Below are positions 165 to 33,971 of a DNA stretch of 64,000 bases, piece by piece. The stretch is from Chthoniobacterales bacterium (lineage in GTDB: Bacteria; Verrucomicrobiota; Verrucomicrobiia; Chthoniobacterales; Terrimicrobiaceae): the NCBI GenBank assembly GCA_014879575.1, contig JACSRU010000108.1, positions 1 to 64,000 on the forward strand. The letters run 5' to 3'. The number at the start of each line of letters is the position of its first letter. The first letter of the stretch is position 1. The notes under the pieces are model-generated. The model worked only from the letters and a program-made list of their open reading frames with translations, searched no databases and was not told where the DNA came from. The translations under genes were made by a program, and so were the position numbers.

Positions 165-878
165 TCAGTGGGTGACACGAACCGGAGTGCCGTAGGGAGC
201 GTTTTCGTAGAATTTTTCCGCAGCCCCGCGGGGGAGACGGATGCATCCATGCGACGCGGCATAACCGGGAAGATAGCCTGCGTGCATTCCCACCGCGCCG
301 GTGATTCTCAGAAAATAAGGCATGGCAGCCCCGCGGAATCGGGTGCCCGGCGGACGCTTGTCCTTATTGACCCCGACATTTTTCATAACCACATCCCCGC
401 CCGCATCCACGTAATCCCCGTAGAGAGTCGAGACGTGGTCCACATCTTTTTCAATGACGGAATAATCCCCCGAAGGCGTGCTGTAGCCCTCGCGACCGGT
501 CGAGACGGGGGAGATTCCCACAAGAACGCCTCCCTTGAAAAATCTCGCCGTTTGGTCGCTGAGATCAATGACAATCGAGGGGGATCCGCCGGGATTGTCA
601 TCCACCCACGACCACGAGACTTCCGGCGGCTGAGGAGCCTCGGCGGGCTTTTTCTGGCCGCGGGGAGAGGCAAAAAGAATCTCTCCGTTGGGTCCGAGGT
701 AGGCTGTCGAAAAATCCGGATGGTTCTGGAAGCCGGGGGGCTTTGAGGCACAGGAGATAAGAAAAGGAGCGGCGAGAACCGCCAGGGATACACCCCGGAC
801 CGCCCGTCGCCGGGCGGCTTGCCCAGGCCACCTGGCCAGCCTCAAAAAAATCGGTTGGAAGGAGGTGTTACTCTTCAT
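165..878 (-). CDS. L,D-transpeptidase (YkuD family) lipoprotein
   Basis: A 237-residue protein. It starts with a basic n-region and a hydrophobic segment ending in a lipobox (LISC, about residue 40), so it is probably an outer-membrane or periplasmic lipoprotein. The C-terminal half is a YkuD domain with the conserved HAG...SHGCIRLP signature; the Cys is the catalytic nucleophile that forms 3-3 peptidoglycan cross-links or attaches proteins to peptidoglycan. The ATG at 878 overlaps the stop codon of the upstream RND pump by 4 bp (ATGA), so the two are probably co-translated. The physiological substrate cannot be read from sequence. Confidence 0.88.
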
Positions 879-3800
879 GGGGTTGTCGTCTTTTCCTGAG
901 TCTGGGGCACTTCTTCTTTTCGCCCCGCAAAAAACCGTTCCACCACATAGAAGCAGGCCGGAATGAGGAAGATGGAGAGGAACGTGGCCGCGAGCATGCC
1001 GCCGATCACCGTGGTTCCAAGCACCCGACGCGAAACCGCTCCCGAGCCGGAAGCCAGGGCCAGGGGAATTGTTCCGAAGATAAAGGCAAACGCCGTCATA
1101 AGGATCGGGCGCAGCCGAAGCTTGGCGCCTGCCAGCGCGGCATCCATGGCGGACTTGCCTTTCTCGTATTCGTCCTTGGCGAACTCCACGATGAGGATCG
1201 CATTTTTGGCAGCGAGTCCGATGAGCATGACGAGCCCGATCTGTGCGTAGAGGTTGTTTTGCATGCCACGAATGCTTAACCCGGCAAAGGCGCCGAAGAC
1301 GGCAATCGGCGTGGTGAGAAGCACGCTGAAGGGCAGTGACCAACTCTCATATTGCGCGGCGAGAATCAGAAATACGAAGAGCAACGAGAGTCCAAAAATC
1401 GCGCTGGGCGGAACCCCCTGGGCGGCTTTCTGCTCCTGATAGGACATGCCAAAGTAGTCGAACCCCATGCCGGACGGCATGGTCTGGGCGAAGACGTCCT
1501 CGAGTGCCCGCATGGCTTGATTCGTTGAAAAGCCAGGGGCAACCGCCGCGTTGATCTGGGAACTTCGGAACATGTTGTAGCGCATCGTGAACTCCGGGCC
1601 AAACGAGTGCTTTGCCCGCACGAAGGAATTGATCGGCACGGCCTGACCTTTGTCGTTGGTCACGAAGAACAGGCCGAGGTTGTCGATGTCGGTCCGGTAT
1701 TCCCCCTCCGCCTGGATATACACCTGCCATTGGAGACCGAAGCGGTTGAAGTAATTCACAAAATACCCGCCCAGAAAGGTTTGGACCGTCTCATACGCAT
1801 CCGAGAGGCTGACTCCCTGAATCATCGCCTGGGCCTCGTCCACATCGAGAAAGATTTGTGGCACATCCCAGAGGGCGGTCGTGAACACGCTGGAGAATTC
1901 CGGACGCTTTTTTGCGGCCGCCATGAAGGTCTGCGTGTTTTTTGCGATGAATTCCACATCGGCACCGGTTCGGTCCTCGAGCATGAAGGTTACGCCACCC
2001 GCCGTGCCGATCCCCGGAATGGCCGGCGGAGGGAAGGCGAAGGCGGCCGTCGGTTTTGCAAGGCCCGCCAGTTCGCGGTTGATGTTAGCCTGAAGGGCAT
2101 CAATCTGGAGGTCCGGGGAGGTGCGCTCTGCCCAGGGTTTCATCGCGATGAAGAAAAAGCCGGTGTAGGTACTCTGCACCGTGCTCAGCAGGTTGAACCC
2201 GATGATCGAGGTGACATGCTGGACGCCGGGGGTCTTCTCGAGGATTTTCTCGATATCAGCGGATGCCGCAGCGGTCTGTTGAAGCGACGAGGCCCGCGGA
2301 AGTTGCACGACACCGAAGAGATACCCCTGGTCCTCCTCGGGAATGAAGCCGGTCGGCATGCGGGCTCCCAGACCAAAGCCGGCAAGCGTCAGGAGCCCGA
2401 GCAAGAACAGACTGATGACAAACTTCCGCATGAGTCCATGGCAGACCCTTCCATAGCCGTTGGTGGCGGAACCGAAGATCTTGTTGAATCCCCGGAAGAA
2501 CGCTCCGAGGGGGCCGGAAGCCTCCTGCCTTGGCCGGAGGAGAAGCGCCCCCAGCGCGGGACTGAGGGAGAGGGCGTTAAAGGCCGAGATGATCACCGAC
2601 ACCGCCATCGTGACAGCGAATTGCTGATACATCGCGCCCGTGATGCCGGGAATGAAAACCGTGGGAATAAACACCGCCGCCAGGATGAGTGCAATGGCGA
2701 CCACAGGCCCGGAGACCTGGGACATCGCTTTGAAGGCCGCATCCTTCGGCGACAACCCCTGCTCGATATGGTGCTCGATGGCCTCCACCACGACGATGGC
2801 GTCATCGACGACCAATCCAATGGCCAGCACAAGTCCGAACAGGGACAGTGTGTTGATGGAAAATCCCAATACCGGAAAAATCGCGAAGGTTCCGATCAGG
2901 GACACCGGAACCGCGATCAGCGGAATCAGGGTGGCCCGCCACCCCTGAAGGAAAATGAACACGACGATGATGACAAGAATCATCGCCTCAAACAACGTCT
3001 TCACGATTTCCTTCATGCCCTCGGTGATGGCAAGCGTCGTATCCAACGCCACTTCATATTTGAGATCATCGGGAAAAAGCTTCGCCTGCTGCTCGAAAAG
3101 TGCCCGGACCTGTTTCATGGTGTCCACGGCATTCGATCCGGGAAGTTGATAGACCGCCACGATGGCCGCGTTCTGACCGTTGAAGCGTCCCTGCAGGTTG
3201 TAAATCTGGCCGCCCAGTTCCACGCGCGCCACGTCCCGCACGCGCACAATGGATCCGTCCTCATTGGCGCGAATGACGATGTTCTCGAAATCCTCCGGCG
3301 TCACGAGCCGCCCGGTGGTGTTGACCGTGAACGTGAAGACCTGACCGGGCGGCACGGGTTCGGCGCCGATCTGGCCGGCCGGATTCACGTTGTTTTGCGC
3401 GTTGACCGCATCGATGACCTCCGGGACCGTGATGTTCAGGGTCGCCAGGCGATCCGGCTTCACCCAAATCCGCATGGCATACTGACCCGCGCCAAAAATG
3501 CTGACGCTCCCGACCCCGTTGACGCGGGTGAGCGGGTCATTGATGTTGATGTAGGCGTAGTTTGCCAGGAAGGTGGGATCGAACGTCCCGTTCGGCGAGT
3601 AGATGGCAAACACGCCGAGCGGCGAGGAAAGTGCCTGTTCCACGGTGACTCCGAAATTCCGGACATCCTGCGGGAGCTGCGAAGAGGCCTGGGTCTGCCG
3701 CATCTGGGCGAGAATCTGATCCGTCGTCGGTTCGGTTGATGTGTCGAAGATGACATTCAGATTCATCATGCCGTTGTTGGCATTGATCGAATACATGTAG

Positions 3801-5334: not shown

Positions 5335-6465
5335 CTACTGGGGCAGATCGCGCAGACCAACCCCCGGCACCGGGGGTGGCGGGACAGCCTCCACGATGGG
5401 CTTCAAGGCGGTTTCGGGATTTCTGTAGGCCGCCACTTCCCGGGGGGAAATGTGATTTTCGGCCAATTTTTTGTATTCCAAAATCCCGCGGGCGATGGAG
5501 GTTGCGTAATCGTCCCTCCATTGTTTCGAGGCGACCTTGCGGGCGTCGTCGGCATTGGTTAAAAACCCTCCCTCCACGAGCACGGAGGGAACCTCCGCCA
5601 GGCGGATTACGGCAAACCGAGCTCTCTTTACTCCACGATCGGTCATTTCAACCCTGCCAAGCATGGAATGGTAAATCGCGTTCGCGAGGGCAAAGCTGTG
5701 GATGTCGTGATGGTTGCCGTTTTCCTGAACCATGTCCCGCTCCCGAATTTGTTCGTAGGCGGTGGAGGGTGCCCCCCGGGGGGTCACACAAAAAATCTCA
5801 AATCCTTTGGCCGCCGGATTGGTGTCGGATGCGTTAAAATGCAGGCTGACAAAAACGGCGTTTTTCAAGCGACTGGCCACCGCCGCCCGGTCGGCCAATT
5901 CAACAAAGCTATCGCTGTTCCTCGTGAGAATGACCCGTATTCCGGATTTTTGAAGTGCGTTTCGAACCCGACGGGCGATATCGAGCGCGAAGTTTTTTTC
6001 GTGTTCATACGGACTGCGAGCCCCATTGTCGCGCCCCCCGTGGCCCGGATCGAGAATGACCGTGGAAACGGGAGGGAATTCCGGAATGCGGGTCGGGCGA
6101 AAGGCTGGTTCCAGTGTTTTTCCAAGATCCAGGCGCGAGACATAAACCTTGCCGTCATCCTCCAACACCGGGAAGGCGAGCCAGTGCCTGATCCCGTTGA
6201 TTTCCATTTCGCGGCTGTTTAGCGTCGCGAGGAGGGAGCGACCCGAGCCCTTGAGCTTCCGGGTTTTGGCATCCGGGGACGTCGCTTCGCCGAGACCGTA
6301 GAAGGTTGCGATTTCCTCCAGGGAAACATGATCCCTTCCGGAGAACGATTTGATCTCCCACGCCCTTGCCGGGAGCGCACCGAGCAGGATCACCAACAAT
6401 CCTCTGCCGACGATACGACACAGGCGGCCAATCCCTCCGGCGGATCTGGGACCGGGGAATCGCAT
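5335..6465 (-). CDS. N-acetylmuramoyl-L-alanine amidase (Amidase_3)
   Basis: A 376-residue exported protein. After the signal peptide (cleavage near ALPARA-W) comes about 110 residues without a motif I recognise, then an Amidase_3 domain. Its zinc and catalytic residues are visible: His in ILDPGHGG, Glu in YEHEKN, His in VSLHFNAS, and the catalytic Glu in VLVEGGFL. It cleaves the amide between MurNAc and L-Ala of the stem peptide, as AmiC does in daughter-cell separation. ATG at 6465 is chosen because the next one upstream (6501) would overlap the neighbouring gene. It is the last gene of the ECF sigma operon, 7 bp after the HtrA-like gene. Confidence 0.9.
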   Translation of the reverse strand: MRFPGPRSAGGIGRLCRIVGRGLLVILLGALPARAWEIKSFSGRDHVSLEEIATFYGLGEATSPDAKTRKLKGSGRSLLATLNSREMEINGIRHWLAFPVLEDDGKVYVSRLDLGKTLEPAFRPTRIPEFPPVSTVILDPGHGGRDNGARSPYEHEKNFALDIARRVRNALQKSGIRVILTRNSDSFVELADRAAVASRLKNAVFVSLHFNASDTNPAAKGFEIFCVTPRGAPSTAYEQIRERDMVQENGNHHDIHSFALANAIYHSMLGRVEMTDRGVKRARFAVIRLAEVPSVLVEGGFLTNADDARKVASKQWRDDYATSIARGILEYKKLAENHISPREVAAYRNPETALKPIVEAVPPPPVPGVGLRDLPQ

Positions 6466-6472
6466 TGGCCGG

Positions 6473-7513
6473 TTATTTCGGAGCGATGTTTGAGGTGGCA
6501 TCGGGTGCGGAGGTCGCCTGCATTTCGTGGTCCGGAGCCAGCGGATGGAGTGTCGGCTTCACCGGGAAGGACAATTTTTGCGAGCCCCGCATGACTTGGA
6601 TTTCCGCCGGATCTCCGGCAGTCAAATAGTAGGAGGCGTCCAGGACGTCTTCACTTGTGGTGATGGGGGTATTGCCCACACGGAGGAGGACGTCGCCAAG
6701 TTGCAGGCCCGACAGGGCCGCAGGGGTCTCCGGATCCAGCGCACCGATTCTGGCAGTGGACCCCTCAACGGATTCCCGGGCGTCCTCCACCTCGACCCCC
6801 ACCCATCCAGGGCGAAGCTCCCCGAAGCGAACCAGATCCCGGTGCAACTTCTCCGCCGCCTGCATCGGAAGGATGTGGCAGGCGGATCCGTCGCCGAGGC
6901 TCCCCACAAGGATTCCGATGGACTCCCCTTTCATGTTCAAAATGGGAGAGCCCCCCTGACCGCGCTGCACGGACAGGTTTGCGCGAAAATGCGTCGTGGA
7001 AAAATATTGTCCCAGATACTTGCGGTCCCGTCCGGCGATAAACCCGAAGCTCGGACATTCCTCCAGATCCTCCGGATAGCCGATCAGCACCACCGGTGTC
7101 GCGATGTCCACTGGCTTCGAATCCCCGATCGGGATGAACGGAGTGCTGGCATCCACCTTCAGGATGGCGATTCCGCTCCGTTGATCCGCCACGAGAATTT
7201 TTGCGGGAAGCTCTTTGCCATCGAAAATCACCCGCACCTCCTGGGCCTTGAGCACAATGCCCGCATGCGTGTAGAGCGTGCCGAAAGGATCCGAAAAAAA
7301 TCCGCTCCCATACCGGATCCCCAGGGCGTCCGTGGCCCGCACCTTCACAACCGCCCTGCCCCGTTCCTCAAAAATTTTGTGGACCTGCGCGGAAAGCTTG
7401 TCCGCCACGGACTCTTCCGCATTCAGACAGACGCAAAATCCCAGGGAAAAAAGGGCGGCAAAAGAAACCGCCGAAACCCGGAAAGAAAAGCTAGAAGCTG
7501 CGGGAGGAAGCAT
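6473..7513 (-). CDS. HtrA/DegP-like exported PDZ protein lacking the catalytic triad
   Basis: A 346-residue protein: signal peptide (about 1-32), a chymotrypsin-fold protease domain (about 38-215) and one PDZ domain (about 230-325). The fold landmarks of HtrA are all present (GSGFF, THAGIV, SGIAILKVD, RGQGGSPILN). Aligned by eye on the usual TNNHVV, TDLAVLK and GNSGGP motifs, however, the catalytic His, Asp and Ser are Gly85, Gly114 and Gly187. His83 and Ser189 lie two residues away. It is therefore probably a pseudoprotease acting as a binding or sensor protein. It overlaps the anti-sigma-like gene by 23 bp and sits in the position a DegP/MucD-type protease often takes in rpoE-type operons. 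Confidence 0.85.
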   Translation of the reverse strand: MLPPAASSFSFRVSAVSFAALFSLGFCVCLNAEESVADKLSAQVHKIFEERGRAVVKVRATDALGIRYGSGFFSDPFGTLYTHAGIVLKAQEVRVIFDGKELPAKILVADQRSGIAILKVDASTPFIPIGDSKPVDIATPVVLIGYPEDLEECPSFGFIAGRDRKYLGQYFSTTHFRANLSVQRGQGGSPILNMKGESIGILVGSLGDGSACHILPMQAAEKLHRDLVRFGELRPGWVGVEVEDARESVEGSTARIGALDPETPAALSGLQLGDVLLRVGNTPITTSEDVLDASYYLTAGDPAEIQVMRGSQKLSFPVKPTLHPLAPDHEMQATSAPDATSNIAPK

Positions 7514-7925
7514 AACTCACCGGACGGGTCGGAAGCACATAGTGCACAGAGGGAGAGCCGGTGGATGTCATCGCTACGGGAGCGGATTCGCCAATGGTTA
7601 CCGATTGCGGTGAGGTCAAATTGAGGGGGGCGGGCGGATTTGAGGCAATGGCACCGCCGGGAACCGGGGCACTTGGGCGAAAGACGATCAAGCTCGAGGC
7701 GGCTACCGCCATGGCGACAATGGTGGCGTAAACCATGCGGGGAACCTGAAAATTGGGTGCCAAAGAAACCAGCCGGTCCCAGGTAATCTCCCAGAGGGGG
7801 CGCCGGATGAGTTCCGCGCGTTGGCGCGCCTGGAATTCCTGCAGGAAATCCTCGAAATATCCCGGAGGCGGCATCTCGTAACGTTTCAACCTCAGTAGTT
7901 TGGAGACTTGTTCTTCGGGTGTCAT
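7491..7925 (-). CDS. Small single-span membrane protein, candidate anti-sigma factor
   Basis: A 144-residue protein with a charged cytoplasmic part (about 1-63), one transmembrane helix (about 64-83, ending IVFRP) and a Ser/Pro-rich periplasmic tail. I do not recognise the family by motif, and there is no HxxxCxxC zinc signature of ZAS anti-sigma factors. The evidence for anti-sigma function is position and topology: it starts 10 bp after the stop of the ECF sigma gene and overlaps the HtrA-like gene, matching the sigma, anti-sigma, DegP-like order of rpoE/algU operons. The cytoplasmic part would bind the sigma factor and the tail would sense the envelope. This role is inferred. Confidence 0.7.
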   Translation of the reverse strand: MTPEEQVSKLLRLKRYEMPPPGYFEDFLQEFQARQRAELIRRPLWEITWDRLVSLAPNFQVPRMVYATIVAMAVAASSLIVFRPSAPVPGGAIASNPPAPLNLTSPQSVTIGESAPVAMTSTGSPSVHYVLPTRPVSYASSRSF

Positions 7926-7935
7926 GGTTCCGTGA

Positions 7936-8520
7936 TCACGTGGTGATAAACTCTTGCAGGTAATTTTGCAACTGTCTGTGCGCGTAAAAGAGCCGCGAGC
8001 GGACGGTCCCCTCGGAGGTCTTCAAAACCTTTGCGATTTCCGCATGCGGCATTCCCTGGATATCAAACATCGTCACAACAGCTCTATGCTCATCTGACAA
8101 CTTCATCATGGCTTCGTTCAATTTTTTTTGAAGTTCACCGAGATTGGCCTGATGTCGGGGGTCGCGGGCGGTGGTGGCTTCGATGAAATCCGGATCATTC
8201 GCGATCCCATTATCCACATCGTCGAGACTCATCGTCATCCGGCGGTTGCGTTTCTTCAGGAAATTGATCGCCATGTTGACGGCGATCGAGTGCAGCCAGG
8301 TATAAATGCTGGATTTCCCCTGGAACCCCTTGATCGAGCGATAGGCCTTGGAAAAAACCTCTTGGAGGAGGTCGTTTGTATCCTCGTGATTCGAGGTCAT
8401 GTTGTAGATCAGTCCGTAAAGGCGGGGACTAAATCGCGTCACGAGTTCGTCAAACGCCCGGGCGTCGCCCGCTTGGGTGCGGGCCACGAGTTCTTGGTCG
8501 GGCGTCTCGGGTGTTTCCAT
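7936..8520 (-). CDS. ECF-type RNA polymerase sigma factor (sigma-70 family)
   Basis: A 194-residue protein with region 2 (about 20-90, including LLQEVFSKAYRSI and a Trp-containing -10 recognition helix) and region 4 (about 132-185, a helix-turn-helix around HAEIAKVLKTSEGTVRSRL). It lacks regions 1 and 3, as ECF sigma factors do. The start at 8520 (METPETPD) is chosen because upstream codons in this frame read like noise. It heads the sigma, membrane protein, HtrA-like, amidase operon. Its likely regulon is envelope stress and peptidoglycan remodelling, and it probably activates its own operon. Target promoters cannot be determined here. Confidence 0.93.
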   Translation of the reverse strand: METPETPDQELVARTQAGDARAFDELVTRFSPRLYGLIYNMTSNHEDTNDLLQEVFSKAYRSIKGFQGKSSIYTWLHSIAVNMAINFLKKRNRRMTMSLDDVDNGIANDPDFIEATTARDPRHQANLGELQKKLNEAMMKLSDEHRAVVTMFDIQGMPHAEIAKVLKTSEGTVRSRLFYAHRQLQNYLQEFITT

Positions 8521-8650
8521 GAGCTGGGCAAGGCGACATCTATCGCAAAGCCGGACGGCTGTGCAGAAAAAAATGGGGTGCCCGCGTGTCGGAGTTTTCG
8601 TCGCCCGGGTGTGGAAGCTGGAAGGGAGAGGAAAGGCGGTTCGCGCAGGC

Positions 8651-9916
8651 TCAGGCCGCGTCCTTTTCCTGCTTCTTGCGAATGAGCGGGGCACGCTTGC
8701 CCTCGACCACGGAGCGATTGATCGTGACCTCGGCAATGTCGTCCCGACCTGGGGAGTCAAACATGACATCGAGCATGATCCGTTCGATCATGGTGCGCAG
8801 GGCTCTGGCACCGGTGCCCTTTTTGAGGGCTTCCGAAGCAAGAGCCCGGAGGGCATCCTTCGTGATGTTGAGACCGACGCCATCCATGGCGAGCAGCTTG
8901 GTGAACTGCTTGACCATGGCATTTTTTGGTTCCTGAAGGATTGTCACCAGCTCCTCCTCGGTCAATTCATCCAGCGCGGCAACGATCGGGAGGCGTCCGA
9001 TGAATTCAGGAATGAGCCCGAAACTCAGGAGGTCTTCGGGTTCAACCCCCCGCAAGGCTTCGCGATGGAGAAGATTCGAGGACAGATCCTTGCCGGCATG
9101 GAAGCCCATTGCGCGTCCTCCCATCCGGCGGTGGATGATTTTGTCGAGTCCGACAAACGCCCCCCCGCAGATGAAAAGGATTTTTTCGGTGTTCACCTGG
9201 ATGTATTCTTGGTGCGGGTGCTTTCGTCCGCCCTGCGGCGGGACATTGCAGACGGTGCCCTCGAGCATCTTGAGGAGAGCCTGTTGGACTCCCTCGCCCG
9301 AGACGTCGCGTGTGATGCTGACATTCTCGGTTTTGCGCCCGATTTTGTCGATTTCATCAATATAAACGATCCCCATCTCGCAGCGTTTGACATCGTAGTC
9401 GGCATTCTGAAGGAGACGGAGAATGATGTTCTCGACATCCTCGCCCACATAGCCGGCTTCGGTGATCGAGGTGGCGTCGGCGATGCAAAACGGAACATCC
9501 AGGATTTTTGCGAGCGTGCGGGCGAGGAGGGTTTTTCCCGAGCCCGTGGGGCCGATCAAAAGGATGTTGCTCTTTTCGATTTCCACATCCGCCAGCGGGT
9601 CAACACCAACCGTGGAGGGGATTTCCTGCAACAGTCGTTTGTAGTGGTTGTGCATGGCGACGGAGAGCACCTTCTTTGCCTGGTTCTGTCCGATCACATG
9701 CTGATCGAGTTGCTGCTTGATCTCCGCCGGTTTTGGCACCCGGAGCGTAGGCTTCACCTTCCTGGTTTCCTCCCGGGTTTCCTTGTCCAGAATCCCTTTG
9801 CAGACCGTGATGCAGCTGTCGCAAATATAGACGCCGGGTCCGGCAATGAGCTTGCGGACCTCTGCATGGTTTTTGCCACAGAAGGAACACATCGTCAGGT
9901 TGGTCGTGCGCGCCAT
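8651..9916 (-). CDS. clpX: ATP-dependent Clp protease, ATP-binding subunit ClpX
   Basis: A 421-residue AAA+ unfoldase. It starts with the four-Cys zinc-binding domain (CSFCGK ... YICDSC), then the Walker A motif GPTGSGKT and a Walker B ending in DEIDKI, with sensor and arginine-finger regions and the C-terminal small domain. It recognises tagged substrates, unfolds them and feeds them into ClpP. It follows clpP by 10 bp in the conserved order tig-clpP-clpX. Length and motifs are normal for the family. Confidence 0.98.
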
Positions 9917-9926
9917 AGAGAGGAAC

Positions 9927-10538
9927 TTATTCCGCTAATTTATCGAACCCCTGGAGTTCCTTGCGGGATTTCACAACCTCGTCCACAAGTCCGTAGGCCT
10001 TCGCCTCTTCCGCCGTCATGTAGTAGTCCCGGTCCGCATCCTGGTTCACCTGTTCGACCGACTTTCCGGTATGCAGGGAAAGAATCCCGTTGAGGCGTTT
10101 CTTGAGCTTGAACATGAACTCGACCTGGCGCTCGACATCGCTGGCCTGGCCTTGGGCGCCGCCGGAGACCTGGTGGATCATGATGTCGGAATTCGGGAGC
10201 GCATAGCGCTTTCCCTTGGCGCCGGCACAAAGGAGAACGGCGCCCATGCTGGCGGCGATGCCGATGCAGTAGGTGTTCACATCGCAGGTCACGAATTGCA
10301 TCGTGTCGTAAATTGCGAGTCCGGAAGTCACCGAGCCACCGGGAGAGTTGATGTAGATGCTGATGTCCTTTTTCGCGTCTTCCATTTGAAGGAAAAGCAA
10401 CTGGGCAATGACGAGATTGGCGACATGATCATCAATCGGTGTGCCGATGAAAATGATGCGATCCTTCAGGAGGCGCGAGTAGATGTCGTAGCTGCGCTCT
10501 CCGCGCCCGGTCTGTTCAACAACAATGGGAACCAACAT
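9927..10538 (-). CDS. clpP: ATP-dependent Clp protease, proteolytic subunit ClpP
   Basis: A 203-residue serine peptidase of usual length. The catalytic Ser is in [10 protein letters not shown] and the catalytic His in IMIHQVSGG, with the Asp further on ([10 protein letters not shown]). It forms the tetradecameric barrel that degrades polypeptides delivered by ClpX. It lies 5 bp after tig and 10 bp before clpX, so the three are probably one transcript. Confidence 0.98.
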
Positions 10539-10543
10539 AAATT

Positions 10544-11872
10544 TTAAGACTGAGCCGGCGTGTCGGCCGGTTCGCGCACCGTAACATTGGCGGCAATCAA
10601 ATCAAGTGCCTTGCGAATGAGAACCCGCTCACGAACCCCTCCAAGCCCATCGCGCGCCTGCAGTTCCTTGATGAGTTTTTTGACGGGAATCTCGTGGCGG
10701 CGGGCCATTTCTGAAATGACCATGACCATGTCGGTGTCGGTCGCCTCGAGATTCTCCTTTTCGGCGATGCGGAGGAGCAGGAAATTCGTGCGCACGCGGT
10801 CGGTCGCATTCTGTTGGGCAATGCCGACAATTTCATCCTGGTTGGCGCGAAGCTCTTCGTCGCTGACTCCGCGGGCGTGGTTTTCCTGCACGATCTCGCG
10901 CAGGAGGGTGGAGGTCTCCTGCTGGACGGATTGGGCGGGAAGTTCACACTGGACGGAGGAAAGCAGTTGCTTGAGCGCGGCGTTGCGTTTGCCGTTGAGG
11001 AATTCGGATTCCGCCATTTGTTCAAGAGCCTCGCGGACCTCCGTGCGAAGGGACTCGAGGGTTTTTCCGGATTCGATTTTTTCCGCAAGTGCGTCGTCAA
11101 ACGGCGGGAGTTGTTTGACGTTGATGCCGTGGAGGGTGACCGCGTAGCTCACCTGTGACCCCCGGAGATCCTCCAGGGGAAAATCGGAAGGCACATCGAG
11201 CGTGAAGGAACGCTCGTCGTTGATCGCCATCCCCTCGACCGCCTTTGCAAAGCCGGGAACCAGCGTTCCCTCGTCCATGAAAATCCAGGCATTCCGGCGG
11301 CCCTGCAATTGTGCGGGAGCTTTTGGGAGGGCCTCGGAGAGGAGCTGGTCGCCGCGCTTTCCCTCATAGGTCATCACGGCATAGTCGCCCATCGCCACCG
11401 GGCGGTTCTCGACCGCCTCGAAGGTGGCGTGCGGCTCGCGGAGTTGCTCCAACCATTTTTGCACGTCCTCATCCGAGACGGTGCGCTTGGCCAGATCGAT
11501 TGTGATCGAGGAATAATCCGGCAGTTCAAACTCCGGCGCGGTGATGACGCTTGCGCGGTAGCGCATGGTTTTGTCCTCGCCGATCTGGACATCCTCGACC
11601 TTTTCCACCGACAGGCAGCGGAGGTTTTTTTGTTTGATGGCTTCGCTGAGGCTTTCGTTGAGGAGTTTTTTTTCCAGTTCCTCGCGGATGTCCCTGGCAA
11701 AGCGGGTGTCGATGAGCGACTGCGGCGCCTTGCCGGGTCGGTAACCGGGAATCCGGGCCAGGCGTTGAAAATCTTTGGCAATGGACTGCCATTCCCGCGT
11801 CACCTGATCAGCGGGAAGCTCGACTTGAAGGTGGACTATACAATTGGGTTGAGGATCGCAAACGACATTCAT
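10544..11872 (-). CDS. tig: Trigger factor (ribosome-associated chaperone, peptidyl-prolyl isomerase)
   Basis: A 442-residue protein with the trigger-factor order: N-terminal ribosome-binding domain, central FKBP-type isomerase domain (about 150-240, from [14 protein letters not shown] to [12 protein letters not shown]) and a helical C-terminal chaperone domain. It binds near the ribosome exit tunnel and shields nascent chains. The start at 11872 (MNVVCDPQ) gives normal length. It is the first gene of tig-clpP-clpX and is divergent from the pyrophosphatase gene across about 135 bp. I see no clear promoter hexamers there. Confidence 0.95.
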
Positions 11873-12008
11873 GGGCAATCGGACATATTGAGCACAGGAT
11901 GTGTGTTCGGGCAATCGGGAACCGAAAAAATCTGCGGGCCATCGTCGGAAAAGTCTTTCGACTTGTGTGGAGACAATGGCATCAATACCTCCCCTCCATC
12001 CCAAGAAA

Positions 12009-13658
12009 ATGAACACAATCGTCATCGGCCACAAGAACCCCGACATGGACGCCATTTGCTCCGCGATCGGATACGCGGCGTTTAAGACCGCGAGCGGCAC
12101 GCCGAATGTCCAGCCCGCCCGATGCGGCAACACGAATGAACGAATTGATTTTGGGCTCGGCCGCTTCGGATTCGAGGCCCCCGTTTTTCTGAGCGACGTG
12201 TATCCCCGGATCGAGCACGTGATGGAACGCGATGTGGTGAGCGCGCATTGCAAGAGCCCGGTTTATGAGGCGATGACACGGATTGGAGAGTCCCGGTTTC
12301 GCGGGCTGCCGGTTGTGGACGATGAACGCCGCTGTCTGGGGCTGATCTCGGCCTTCAAACTCAGCCAATACCTCTTTCCGCCGCTGGAGCGGATTTCTTC
12401 CGCGCGCGTTGTGGACGCCTCGCTGGCAGACATTCAGAAGTCGATTCACGGCAAACTTCTGGCCGGCCCCTCGGACAGCGAGGTCCGTCCACATGATCTT
12501 GTCGTGGCGGCCATGCACACGGCGACCTTCACCAAGCGATTGAGCCACCTGAATCTGAAGGCCACCGTGTTGATCGTGGGGGATCGGTGGAACATCCAGG
12601 AGATTTCGATCAAGGCCGGCGTCCGGGCGCTCGTGATCCCCAACTATTCCTCGCCGAAAAAGTCCGTGCTTTCCCTGGCGGAAAAGCACGGGGTCTCGCT
12701 GATTACCTCTCCTTACGACACGGCGACCACGGTCCTTCTCGCGCGCGCGGCGGTGTCATCGGAAAAAATGCTGCAACCGAAATTCACGAGTCTGCAAGCC
12801 GACATGCCCTTGCGGGAGGCCCGGGCCGACGTCACGATGTCCTCGCAATTCGCGTTTCCGGTCCTTGGTCCGGAGGGACGCCTGGAGGGGATTGTCTCCA
12901 AAAGCGATTTTCTCAAGCCGGTGCCCCACCAGTTGATCCTGGTGGATCACAACGAGCTGAGCCAGGCCGTGAGCGGGGCCGACGAGGTTCCGGTCGTTGA
13001 AATCCTCGACCACCACCGGATCGGGGTTGCCCCCACGCACCAACCGATCCTCTTTCTGAACCGCCCGGTGGGATCCACCTGCACAATCGTGGGCGGATGC
13101 TACCAACAGGCCGGGATCCCAATCCCAAAAAACGTCGCCGGGCTGCTCATGTGCGGGCTGATTTCCGACACCTTGAATCTTTCCTCCCCCACCACGACTG
13201 ATGCGGATCGCGCGATGATGAAGGATTTGGCGCGTCTCAGCGGCGTCACCCCCTCGGATCTCGCTTCGGAAATTTTTTCGGTTGGCTCCCCGCTTTTGAC
13301 CATGTCCTCCGGGCAGGCCGTCACGGCCGACTGCAAGGAATATATCGAGCGCGGGTTTCGGTTCAGCGTCTCGCAAATCGAGGAGCTCAGCTTCTCGCAC
13401 CTGTCGGAGAAGCGCGGGGAACTCATCGCGGCATTGGAATCCTACCGCCAGTCCAAAGACTACTTCTTCTCGACGCTGCTCATCACCGACGTCAACACCC
13501 AGAACTCGATCCTCCTCCTTTGCGGTCCCGATAACTTCACGCGGTTGATTGATTTTCCGGACGAAGAGCCCGGTGCCTGGAAACTCGACGGGGTCGTCTC
13601 ACGGAAAAAACAACTCCTGCCCTACCTGACGACCCTGCTTGGGCGCGTCGTGGTGTGA
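12009..13658 (+). CDS. ppaC: Manganese-dependent inorganic pyrophosphatase, family II, with CBS and DRTGG insert
   Basis: A 549-residue enzyme hydrolysing pyrophosphate to phosphate. DHH-family metal motifs are clear: HKNPDMD at the N-terminus, DHHRIG in the middle and LISDTL further on, with a DHHA2 domain at the C-terminus. Between the first motif and DHH lie two CBS segments (about 70-130 and 255-315) flanking a DRTGG-like domain. This arrangement is known from nucleotide-regulated CBS-PPases, which are inhibited by AMP/ADP and activated by diadenosine polyphosphates in characterised members. ATG at 12009 is chosen from family similarity (MNTIVIGHKNPD); an in-frame ATG at 11975 is the alternative. 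It ends 6 bp from the convergent carbonic anhydrase gene. Confidence 0.93.
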   Translation: MNTIVIGHKNPDMDAICSAIGYAAFKTASGTPNVQPARCGNTNERIDFGLGRFGFEAPVFLSDVYPRIEHVMERDVVSAHCKSPVYEAMTRIGESRFRGLPVVDDERRCLGLISAFKLSQYLFPPLERISSARVVDASLADIQKSIHGKLLAGPSDSEVRPHDLVVAAMHTATFTKRLSHLNLKATVLIVGDRWNIQEISIKAGVRALVIPNYSSPKKSVLSLAEKHGVSLITSPYDTATTVLLARAAVSSEKMLQPKFTSLQADMPLREARADVTMSSQFAFPVLGPEGRLEGIVSKSDFLKPVPHQLILVDHNELSQAVSGADEVPVVEILDHHRIGVAPTHQPILFLNRPVGSTCTIVGGCYQQAGIPIPKNVAGLLMCGLISDTLNLSSPTTTDADRAMMKDLARLSGVTPSDLASEIFSVGSPLLTMSSGQAVTADCKEYIERGFRFSVSQIEELSFSHLSEKRGELIAALESYRQSKDYFFSTLLITDVNTQNSILLLCGPDNFTRLIDFPDEEPGAWKLDGVVSRKKQLLPYLTTLLGRVVV

Positions 13659-33900: not shown

Positions 33901-33971
33901 GCGGGTATAGCTTAATGGTAAAGTTCCTGCCTTCCAAGCAGGCCATGAGGGTTCGATTCCCTCTACCCGCT
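33901..33971 (+). tRNA. tRNA-Gly (anticodon TCC)
   Basis: A 71-base cloverleaf. The acceptor stem GCGGGTA pairs with TACCCGC without mismatch. The D-arm is AGCTTAATGGTAAAGT, the anticodon stem CCTGC/GCAGG encloses CTTCCAA (anticodon TCC, reading GGA and GGG), and the T-arm is GAGGG-TTCGATT-CCCTC. The discriminator base is T. CCA is not encoded and must be added. It is isolated, between a glycosyltransferase remnant and a convergent ABC exporter gene. Confidence 0.97.

Follow-up and report, generated by a model that had tools for sequence, protein, structure and literature searches.

What does a protein of the HtrA family do when all three residues of its catalytic triad are gone? The question is raised by a gene in a stretch of 64,000 nucleotides (the window, positions 1 to 64,000 of contig JACSRU010000108.1) from a Chthoniobacterales bacterium. 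The minus strand of the window encodes, at positions 6473..7513, an HtrA-like protein with glycine at the places of the catalytic His, Asp and Ser, which is referred to below as pseudo-HtrA. The analysis revealed that the lack of the triad is conserved, and that the gene stands in one operon with the genes of an extracytoplasmic function (ECF) sigma factor and of a membrane protein with a conserved Phe-ended tail. These features point to a role in regulation.

A trypsin-like domain without catalytic triad

Pseudo-HtrA and its parts map to the following positions:

6473..7513, minus strand: pseudo-HtrA, 346 amino acids, a trypsin-like domain without triad and one PDZ domain
6911..7309, minus strand: trypsin-like domain, residues 69-201 (Pfam Trypsin_2, 60.2 bits, E 5e-16)
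6557..6799, minus strand: PDZ domain, residues 239-319 (Pfam PDZ_2, E 5.5e-12)
7259..7261, minus strand: codon of Gly85, catalytic His position (phmmer alignment and homologue rows)
7172..7174, minus strand: codon of Gly114, catalytic Asp position (Gly throughout the order-wide rows examined)
6953..6955, minus strand: codon of Gly187, catalytic Ser position (phmmer alignment and homologue rows)

In the phmmer alignment with Protein Data Bank (PDB) chains of a DegP-like protein, DegQ and MucD, the segment THAGIV is paired with TNNHVV, SGIAILK with SDVAVLK and GQGGSP with GNAGGP/GNSGGP. Gly85, Gly114 and Gly187 thus replace the catalytic His, Asp and Ser, as the original prediction had claimed. 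Its further claim, that the HtrA fold motifs and the PDZ domain are preserved, agrees with the detection of Trypsin_2 and PDZ_2 and with the predicted model, which has the HtrA fold: a trypsin-like double barrel followed by the PDZ domain. The PDZ domain starts with W237-V-G239-V, which we take to be the carboxylate-binding loop; W237 and G239 are invariant in the 43 order-wide rows described below. The N-terminus has a signal-like stretch, as judged by eye. A Pfam scan of the protein at E<=0.001 revealed nothing beyond Trypsin_2 and PDZ, and no RseB/MucB domain. The match to the NCBIfam Do family TIGR02037 (111.4 bits) stayed under the curated score of 416.2 bits. The sole further match to pseudo-HtrA in the genome, located on another contig, is an active HtrA with the motifs TNFHVV, SDIAVLKI and GNSGGP. 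A long open reading frame (ORF) on the plus strand (6527..7624), which runs across the pseudo-HtrA gene, was taken as its mirror image.

A protein search yielded 270 homologues, of which the best 120, those listed, were aligned. The residues at positions 85/114/187 were GGG in 110, AGG in 5, GGA in 3, DGG in one and SGG in one of these 120 proteins; H85, D114 or S187 was found in none of them. A second alignment, spanning the order, comprised 43 rows taken from genome contigs (three partial rows of the 46, L032, L045 and L046, were left out). Here position 114 was Gly in all 43 rows, encoded by all four Gly codons, and position 187 was Gly or Ala in all 43, whereas position 85 varied (Ser 20, Gly 15, Tyr 3, Ala 2, Asp 2, Thr 1). 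The three-glycine trait suggested by the original prediction is therefore valid for the near relatives, but only Gly114 is kept across the order (43/43 rows, and 50/50 loci of the sample described below); since positions 85 and 187 vary, three glycines as the selected trait were rejected. Judged from the aligned sequences, the persistent trait is the absence of the triad and not glycine as such. Most pseudo-HtrA rows have Arg at position 177, where the active HtrA of the genome has Gln.

In 13 pairs of pseudo-HtrA genes dN/dS was between 0.05 and 0.19: pseudo-HtrA is under purifying selection. In a tree of 33 rows, 19 pseudo-HtrAs and 14 active HtrAs of the same class were split by one branch with 100/100 support. 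The tree omits 12 rows of the f7 type, which have very long branches, two near-duplicates and 13 of the 26 fetched active rows, and its root is not fixed; the split thus concerns pseudo-HtrAs other than those of the f7 type. The conserved absence of the triad, the purifying selection and the branch separating these proteins from active HtrAs uphold the original view of a selected pseudoprotease as opposed to decay; of the two roles that it suggested, sensor and holdase, a sensor would agree with the role favoured below. Two proteins found in the wider search described below, L206 (family f70) and L207 (f71), still have Ser at the catalytic position (GQSGSP and GESGAP, respectively), with His and Asp gone, which suggests that His and Asp may have been lost before Ser.

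The sigma factor operon and the tail of the membrane protein

The elements upstream of pseudo-HtrA are these:

7936..8520, minus strand: ECF sigma factor, 194 amino acids (Pfam Sigma70_r2 and r4_2)
7491..7925, minus strand: membrane protein, 144 amino acids, candidate anti-sigma factor by position and architecture
7494..7541, minus strand: residues 129-144 of the membrane protein, a conserved C-terminal tail with Phe at its end
7491..7513, minus strand: 23-nucleotide overlap between the end of the membrane protein gene and the start of the pseudo-HtrA gene

The genes follow each other on the minus strand in the order ECF sigma factor, membrane protein, pseudo-HtrA. The same arrangement, with all three genes on one strand, was found in 42 of 45 fetched related loci; the other three are truncated where their contigs end. 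When the start codons closest to that of the window are taken, an identical 23-nucleotide overlap is present in 34 of 43 loci, including the window's own, and the widest gap between the membrane protein and pseudo-HtrA is 366 nucleotides (L031). The start of the ECF gene was moved from 8769 to the ATG at 8520 because near relatives begin at the corresponding methionine; the longest ORF (7936-8769, minus strand) reaches 83 codons too far upstream, into clpX. Pseudo-HtrA adjoins the putative anti-sigma gene in an ECF operon, as a gene for RseB or MucB would, and this company, which the original prediction had overlooked, suggests that it is a regulator.

The membrane protein consists of a conserved charged N-terminal part, a single hydrophobic segment (residues 64-82), a variable linker and a conserved C-terminus. 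Its position after the ECF gene and its single-pass topology make it the likely anti-sigma factor of the adjoining sigma factor. The tail has the pattern Y-x8-Y-x5-F-COOH in the window, and Tyr129 and Phe144 are invariant. All 43 loci have the terminal Phe (26 TTC and 17 TTT codons), preceded by S, R, K or T, and so do all 120 proteins listed of the 2993 matches in a second homologue search, made with the membrane protein. For comparison, 11 of 401 background ORFs (2.7%) end in Phe. Column entropy was 2.52 bits in the linker versus 1.25 bits in the last 19 residues (126-144). The Phe end is not due to the gene overlap, because it is also present in L009, L010, L014, L017 and L031, where the genes, with the starts chosen, do not overlap. 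The tail resembles the C-termini bound by the PDZ domains of DegS and AlgW, such as YxF and WVF (excerpts of PMC8545111).

Downstream, pseudo-HtrA overlaps a further gene:

5335..6501, minus strand: Amidase_3 gene (N-acetylmuramoyl-L-alanine amidase), overlapping the end of the pseudo-HtrA gene by 29 nucleotides

An amidase gene follows pseudo-HtrA only in L003-L005 of the 45 loci, which are the nearest relatives, and in L042 one lies upstream of the ECF gene; the amidase is probably outside the core set. Just upstream of the sigma operon lie clpX and two genes that, from their sequence, we take to be clpP-like and trigger-factor-like (8651-12253, minus strand). In L003-L047 no ClpX match directly preceded the ECF gene on the same strand; matches on the other strand occurred in L022, L031 and L032. 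From these neighbourhoods clpX and the amidase were rejected as core members. Seventeen stretches upstream of the sigma gene, viewed by eye, gave no ECF-type promoter that could be claimed. Rfam detected nothing near the operon, its sole match in the window being a tRNA gene at 33901-33971 (plus strand).

Distribution in the class Verrucomicrobiia

Within the order Chthoniobacterales, 163 of 197 genomes gave a pseudo-HtrA match at E<=1e-50, a single one per genome in the rows shown; matches were found in 98 of the 112 good-quality genomes and in 42 of 45 genera. Fifty loci were sampled from the 163 genomes, the 30 best and 20 chosen from other families; the ECF gene was not sought in this sample. 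A match to the membrane-protein profile stood beside pseudo-HtrA on the same strand in all 50, and in all 50 the membrane protein ended in Phe. None of the 50 pseudo-HtrAs had H85, all had Gly114, and one (L181, with Ala85) had S187.

The membrane-protein profile had matches in at least 72 of 288 genomes of the phylum; this count is a minimum, as G008 and G078, which gave no match there, do carry the gene set. In 39 of the 72 loci an HtrA-like gene directly follows the membrane protein, which ends in F (23 loci), M (11, of the Akkermansia type) or Y (5). For the HtrA-like gene of L071, which gave no tblastn match, the place was established with a profile built from the remaining f7 rows (E 4.5e-56). 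Five of the other 33 loci, all weak matches, have no adjoining ECF gene and end in R, R, M, H and I; one of them, L101, is cut 223 nucleotides upstream.

A class-wide search with a mixed profile detected one strong match each in 112 of 236 genomes. Twenty of these 112 loci were chosen as a fresh sample representing eighteen families. In all 20, an ECF gene is followed by an ORF with a hydrophobic stretch and then by the HtrA-like gene; in L213, L219 and L223 the middle protein was recognised by its place and hydrophobic stretch, its profile score being only 5.5-13 bits. The middle proteins end in Phe (18) or Tyr (2). H85 and D114 were found in none of the 20 HtrA-like proteins, and S187 in two, L206 and L207, both with Ser85 and Asn114. 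The three-gene set with a triad-less HtrA thus spans the class Verrucomicrobiia, Akkermansia-type genomes included, and at all pseudo-HtrA loci read in it the last residue of the membrane protein is Phe, Tyr or Met. The sampled sets partly share genomes, so their counts are not additive, and profile searches made from proteins of the pseudo-HtrA set favour look-alike loci.

Possible roles of pseudo-HtrA

The role that we favour, and hold to be rather probable, is that of a non-cutting periplasmic co-regulator, whose PDZ domain would hold the C-terminal tail of the candidate anti-sigma factor. At rest the PDZ domain would bind the tail and shield the candidate anti-sigma factor from the site-1 protease. 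Such a shield would be analogous, in another fold, to RseB and MucB, which protect RseA and MucA (excerpts of PMC8545111 and PMC8103513). The C-termini of misfolded outer-membrane proteins would compete for the PDZ domain and drive out the tail. The anti-sigma factor, its tail released, would become exposed and would be cut by an active HtrA or an S41 protease and then by an S2P protease, and the cleavage would free the sigma factor; in effect, a DegS would have turned into a shield. Candidates for the cutting are present in the genome: an S2P protease, S41 proteases and the triad-bearing HtrA. The sign of the regulation, shield versus delivery, is a guess. More tentatively, envelope stress in Verrucomicrobiia might be sensed through an ancient pseudo-DegS, a sensor that does not cut, with the built-in tail of the anti-sigma factor, similar to the ends of outer-membrane proteins, competing with the ends of misfolded ones.

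Several observations weigh against this role. Neither Pfam nor NCBIfam gave a match to the membrane protein at E<=0.001, so it has no recognised anti-sigma domain. The Met ends of the 11 Akkermansia-type loci are weaker candidates for PDZ binding. In 34 of 43 loci the tail codons overlap the start of the next gene, which could partly conserve the tail for another reason. Within the order, 34 of 197 genomes have no pseudo-HtrA match; among the 20 listed of these 34 are genomes of 0.9 Mb (f3) and all listed members of two genera, g7 (f5) and g176 (f65). Finally, in 28 of the 72 loci of the phylum-wide search the ECF gene is present and there is no HtrA neighbour, and 23 of these 28 membrane proteins end in F or Y. 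Most belong to family f9, where all 18 ECF-linked membrane proteins end in Phe and no HtrA gene follows (in L104, whose contig stops 200 nucleotides later, the absence rests on the genome search). Four single loci with ECF gene, in f5, f20, f25 and f7 (L072), likewise lack an HtrA neighbour; three of the four end in F and one in Y. The main exception is f10, with six ECF-linked loci lacking the HtrA neighbour and ending in R, R, R, Y, R and Q. The 18 f9 and six f10 genomes gave no strong match to the pseudo-HtrA profile (at best 114-173 bits), although this search would overlook a copy with the divergence of the Akkermansia type, and f7 genomes fail the cut of the class-wide search. The best matches read in them carry GNSGG or, once, GNNGG. 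Reference scores were 403-452 bits in four genomes that contributed to the profile and 290 bits in the f9 genus with the set.

That f9 genus (L221) has the full three-gene set, from which we conclude that most of f9 has probably lost it. Tails that persist in f9 without a detectable pseudo-HtrA suggest that something else also reads the tail. Such a second reader is expected if pseudo-HtrA acts as a shield or decoy, and unexpected for an exclusive pair. A strict one-to-one pairing of tail and pseudo-HtrA was rejected on account of f9 and the single loci. The f9 loci (L078, L086, L088-L090, L093-L095, L097, L102-L104, L108, L109, L111-L113 and L118) encode membrane proteins of 260-300 amino acids ending in [LIVF][KR]F, and the gene often found next is presumably class II fumarase-like. 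In L072, a 168-amino-acid protein without Pfam match (808-1314, minus strand) occupies the place of the HtrA-like gene; the membrane protein of this locus still ends in NPF.

Instead of shielding the anti-sigma factor, pseudo-HtrA might bind its tail and present it to the site-1 protease, which would make it a positive regulator. Such an adaptor would have an anatomy identical to that of a shield, and there is a precedent in magnetotactic bacteria, where the pseudoprotease MamO promotes MamE-dependent proteolysis (excerpts of PMC4794232). We consider delivery unlikely: sigma gene, membrane protein and tail are all retained in f9 genomes that have no detectable pseudo-HtrA, so delivery by pseudo-HtrA is not a general need.

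A periplasmic chaperone or holdase, made as a product of the stress regulon, would bind unfolded proteins with its PDZ domain and leave the anti-sigma factor untouched. HtrA proteins are known chaperones, mucD is co-transcribed with algU, and the HtrA fold with one PDZ domain would suit this role. It has a somewhat smaller chance than delivery, as the place directly after the membrane protein, with the 23-nucleotide overlap in 34 of 43 loci, and the tail, present at all pseudo-HtrA loci read, are more in keeping with a dedicated partner.

Very unlikely is a scaffold in which His175 and Cys212 form a new site for a metal or another ligand. Both residues are found in 42 of the 43 order-wide rows, Cys212 recurs in 3 of 12 f7 rows (where column readings are uncertain) and His175 in all four f8 rows, and MamO binds metal through two surface histidines (excerpts of PMC4794232). 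On the other hand, f6, f13, f14 and f15 carry Y or F at position 175 and S or T at 212, f8 has A or S at 212 and f7 has L at 175; the pair is split outside the order with the operon unchanged.

The original prediction had named His83 and Ser189 as residues that could take over catalysis, and Cys212 was considered as well. His83 is indeed present in all 120 proteins listed of the 270 near relatives, and Cys212 is almost invariant in the order. Across the order, however, His83 is found in only 16 of 43 rows, and there is no acid at position 114. Ser189 occurs in 10 of the 120 listed relatives and in 12 of 43 order-wide rows, and Cys212 is not part of the GxSGG loop and is missing from f6, f8, f13, f14 and f15. 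This conservation pattern makes catalysis by an active site shifted to His83, Ser189 or Cys212 highly improbable, and such a protease was rejected. A decaying pseudogene has next to no probability and was rejected, given the open frame, the low dN/dS and the presence in most genomes of the order (163 of 197).

If the favoured role is correct, pseudo-HtrA would be a natural case of a relative of site-1 proteases turned into a non-cutting regulator. Many families of one class, very likely Akkermansia too, keep a dead HtrA whose gene stands with those of a sigma factor and of a membrane protein that bears a PDZ-type tail, and this pair of PDZ domain and tail offers a concrete handle on envelope-stress sensing in Verrucomicrobiia. 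The labels 'serine protease Do' and 'S1C family serine protease' on several listed homologues are misleading. HtrA pseudoproteases, such as MamO (excerpts of PMC4794232), and non-enzymatic anti-sigma co-regulators are already known; among the matches listed from the open-access PMC literature there was no pseudo-HtrA beside an ECF sigma factor and no such set in Verrucomicrobia.

The closest counterparts are DegS of E. coli and AlgW of Pseudomonas. Like pseudo-HtrA, as far as its predicted model goes, they have the same fold, a trypsin-like domain with one PDZ domain, and they are linked with an ECF sigma factor and with an anti-sigma factor in the membrane (a candidate in our case). The PDZ domain of DegS and AlgW reads Phe-ended C-termini (excerpts of PMC8545111). 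DegS and AlgW cleave RseA and MucA, whereas pseudo-HtrA has no full triad in any row examined and so lacks what such cleavage requires. It differs also in being encoded in the sigma operon, and in that the Phe end is on the neighbouring membrane protein and not on an outer-membrane protein or MucE.

RseB and MucB share with pseudo-HtrA the place of the gene in the sigma operon (excerpts of PMC8103513; the order rpoE-rseA-rseB-rseC is given in the abstract of PMC4336711) and the non-enzymatic shielding that we propose for pseudo-HtrA. Their domains are different, pseudo-HtrA having Trypsin_2 and PDZ only. MucD is an HtrA encoded in the algU-mucABCD cluster. It resembles pseudo-HtrA in that an HtrA gene stands in an ECF sigma cluster, and its chain was the third-best sequence match in the PDB, but this chain keeps the Ser motif GNSGGP, in contrast to the triad-less pseudo-HtrA. 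MamO and similar proteins of magnetotactic bacteria are HtrA-derived pseudoproteases with non-catalytic roles. In MamO, His116 and Asp149 are retained and Thr takes the place of Ser, whereas pseudo-HtrA has lost both His and Asp; MamO binds metal and carries a transporter domain, whereas pseudo-HtrA has a sigma factor and a membrane protein as neighbours (for MamO, excerpts of PMC4794232).
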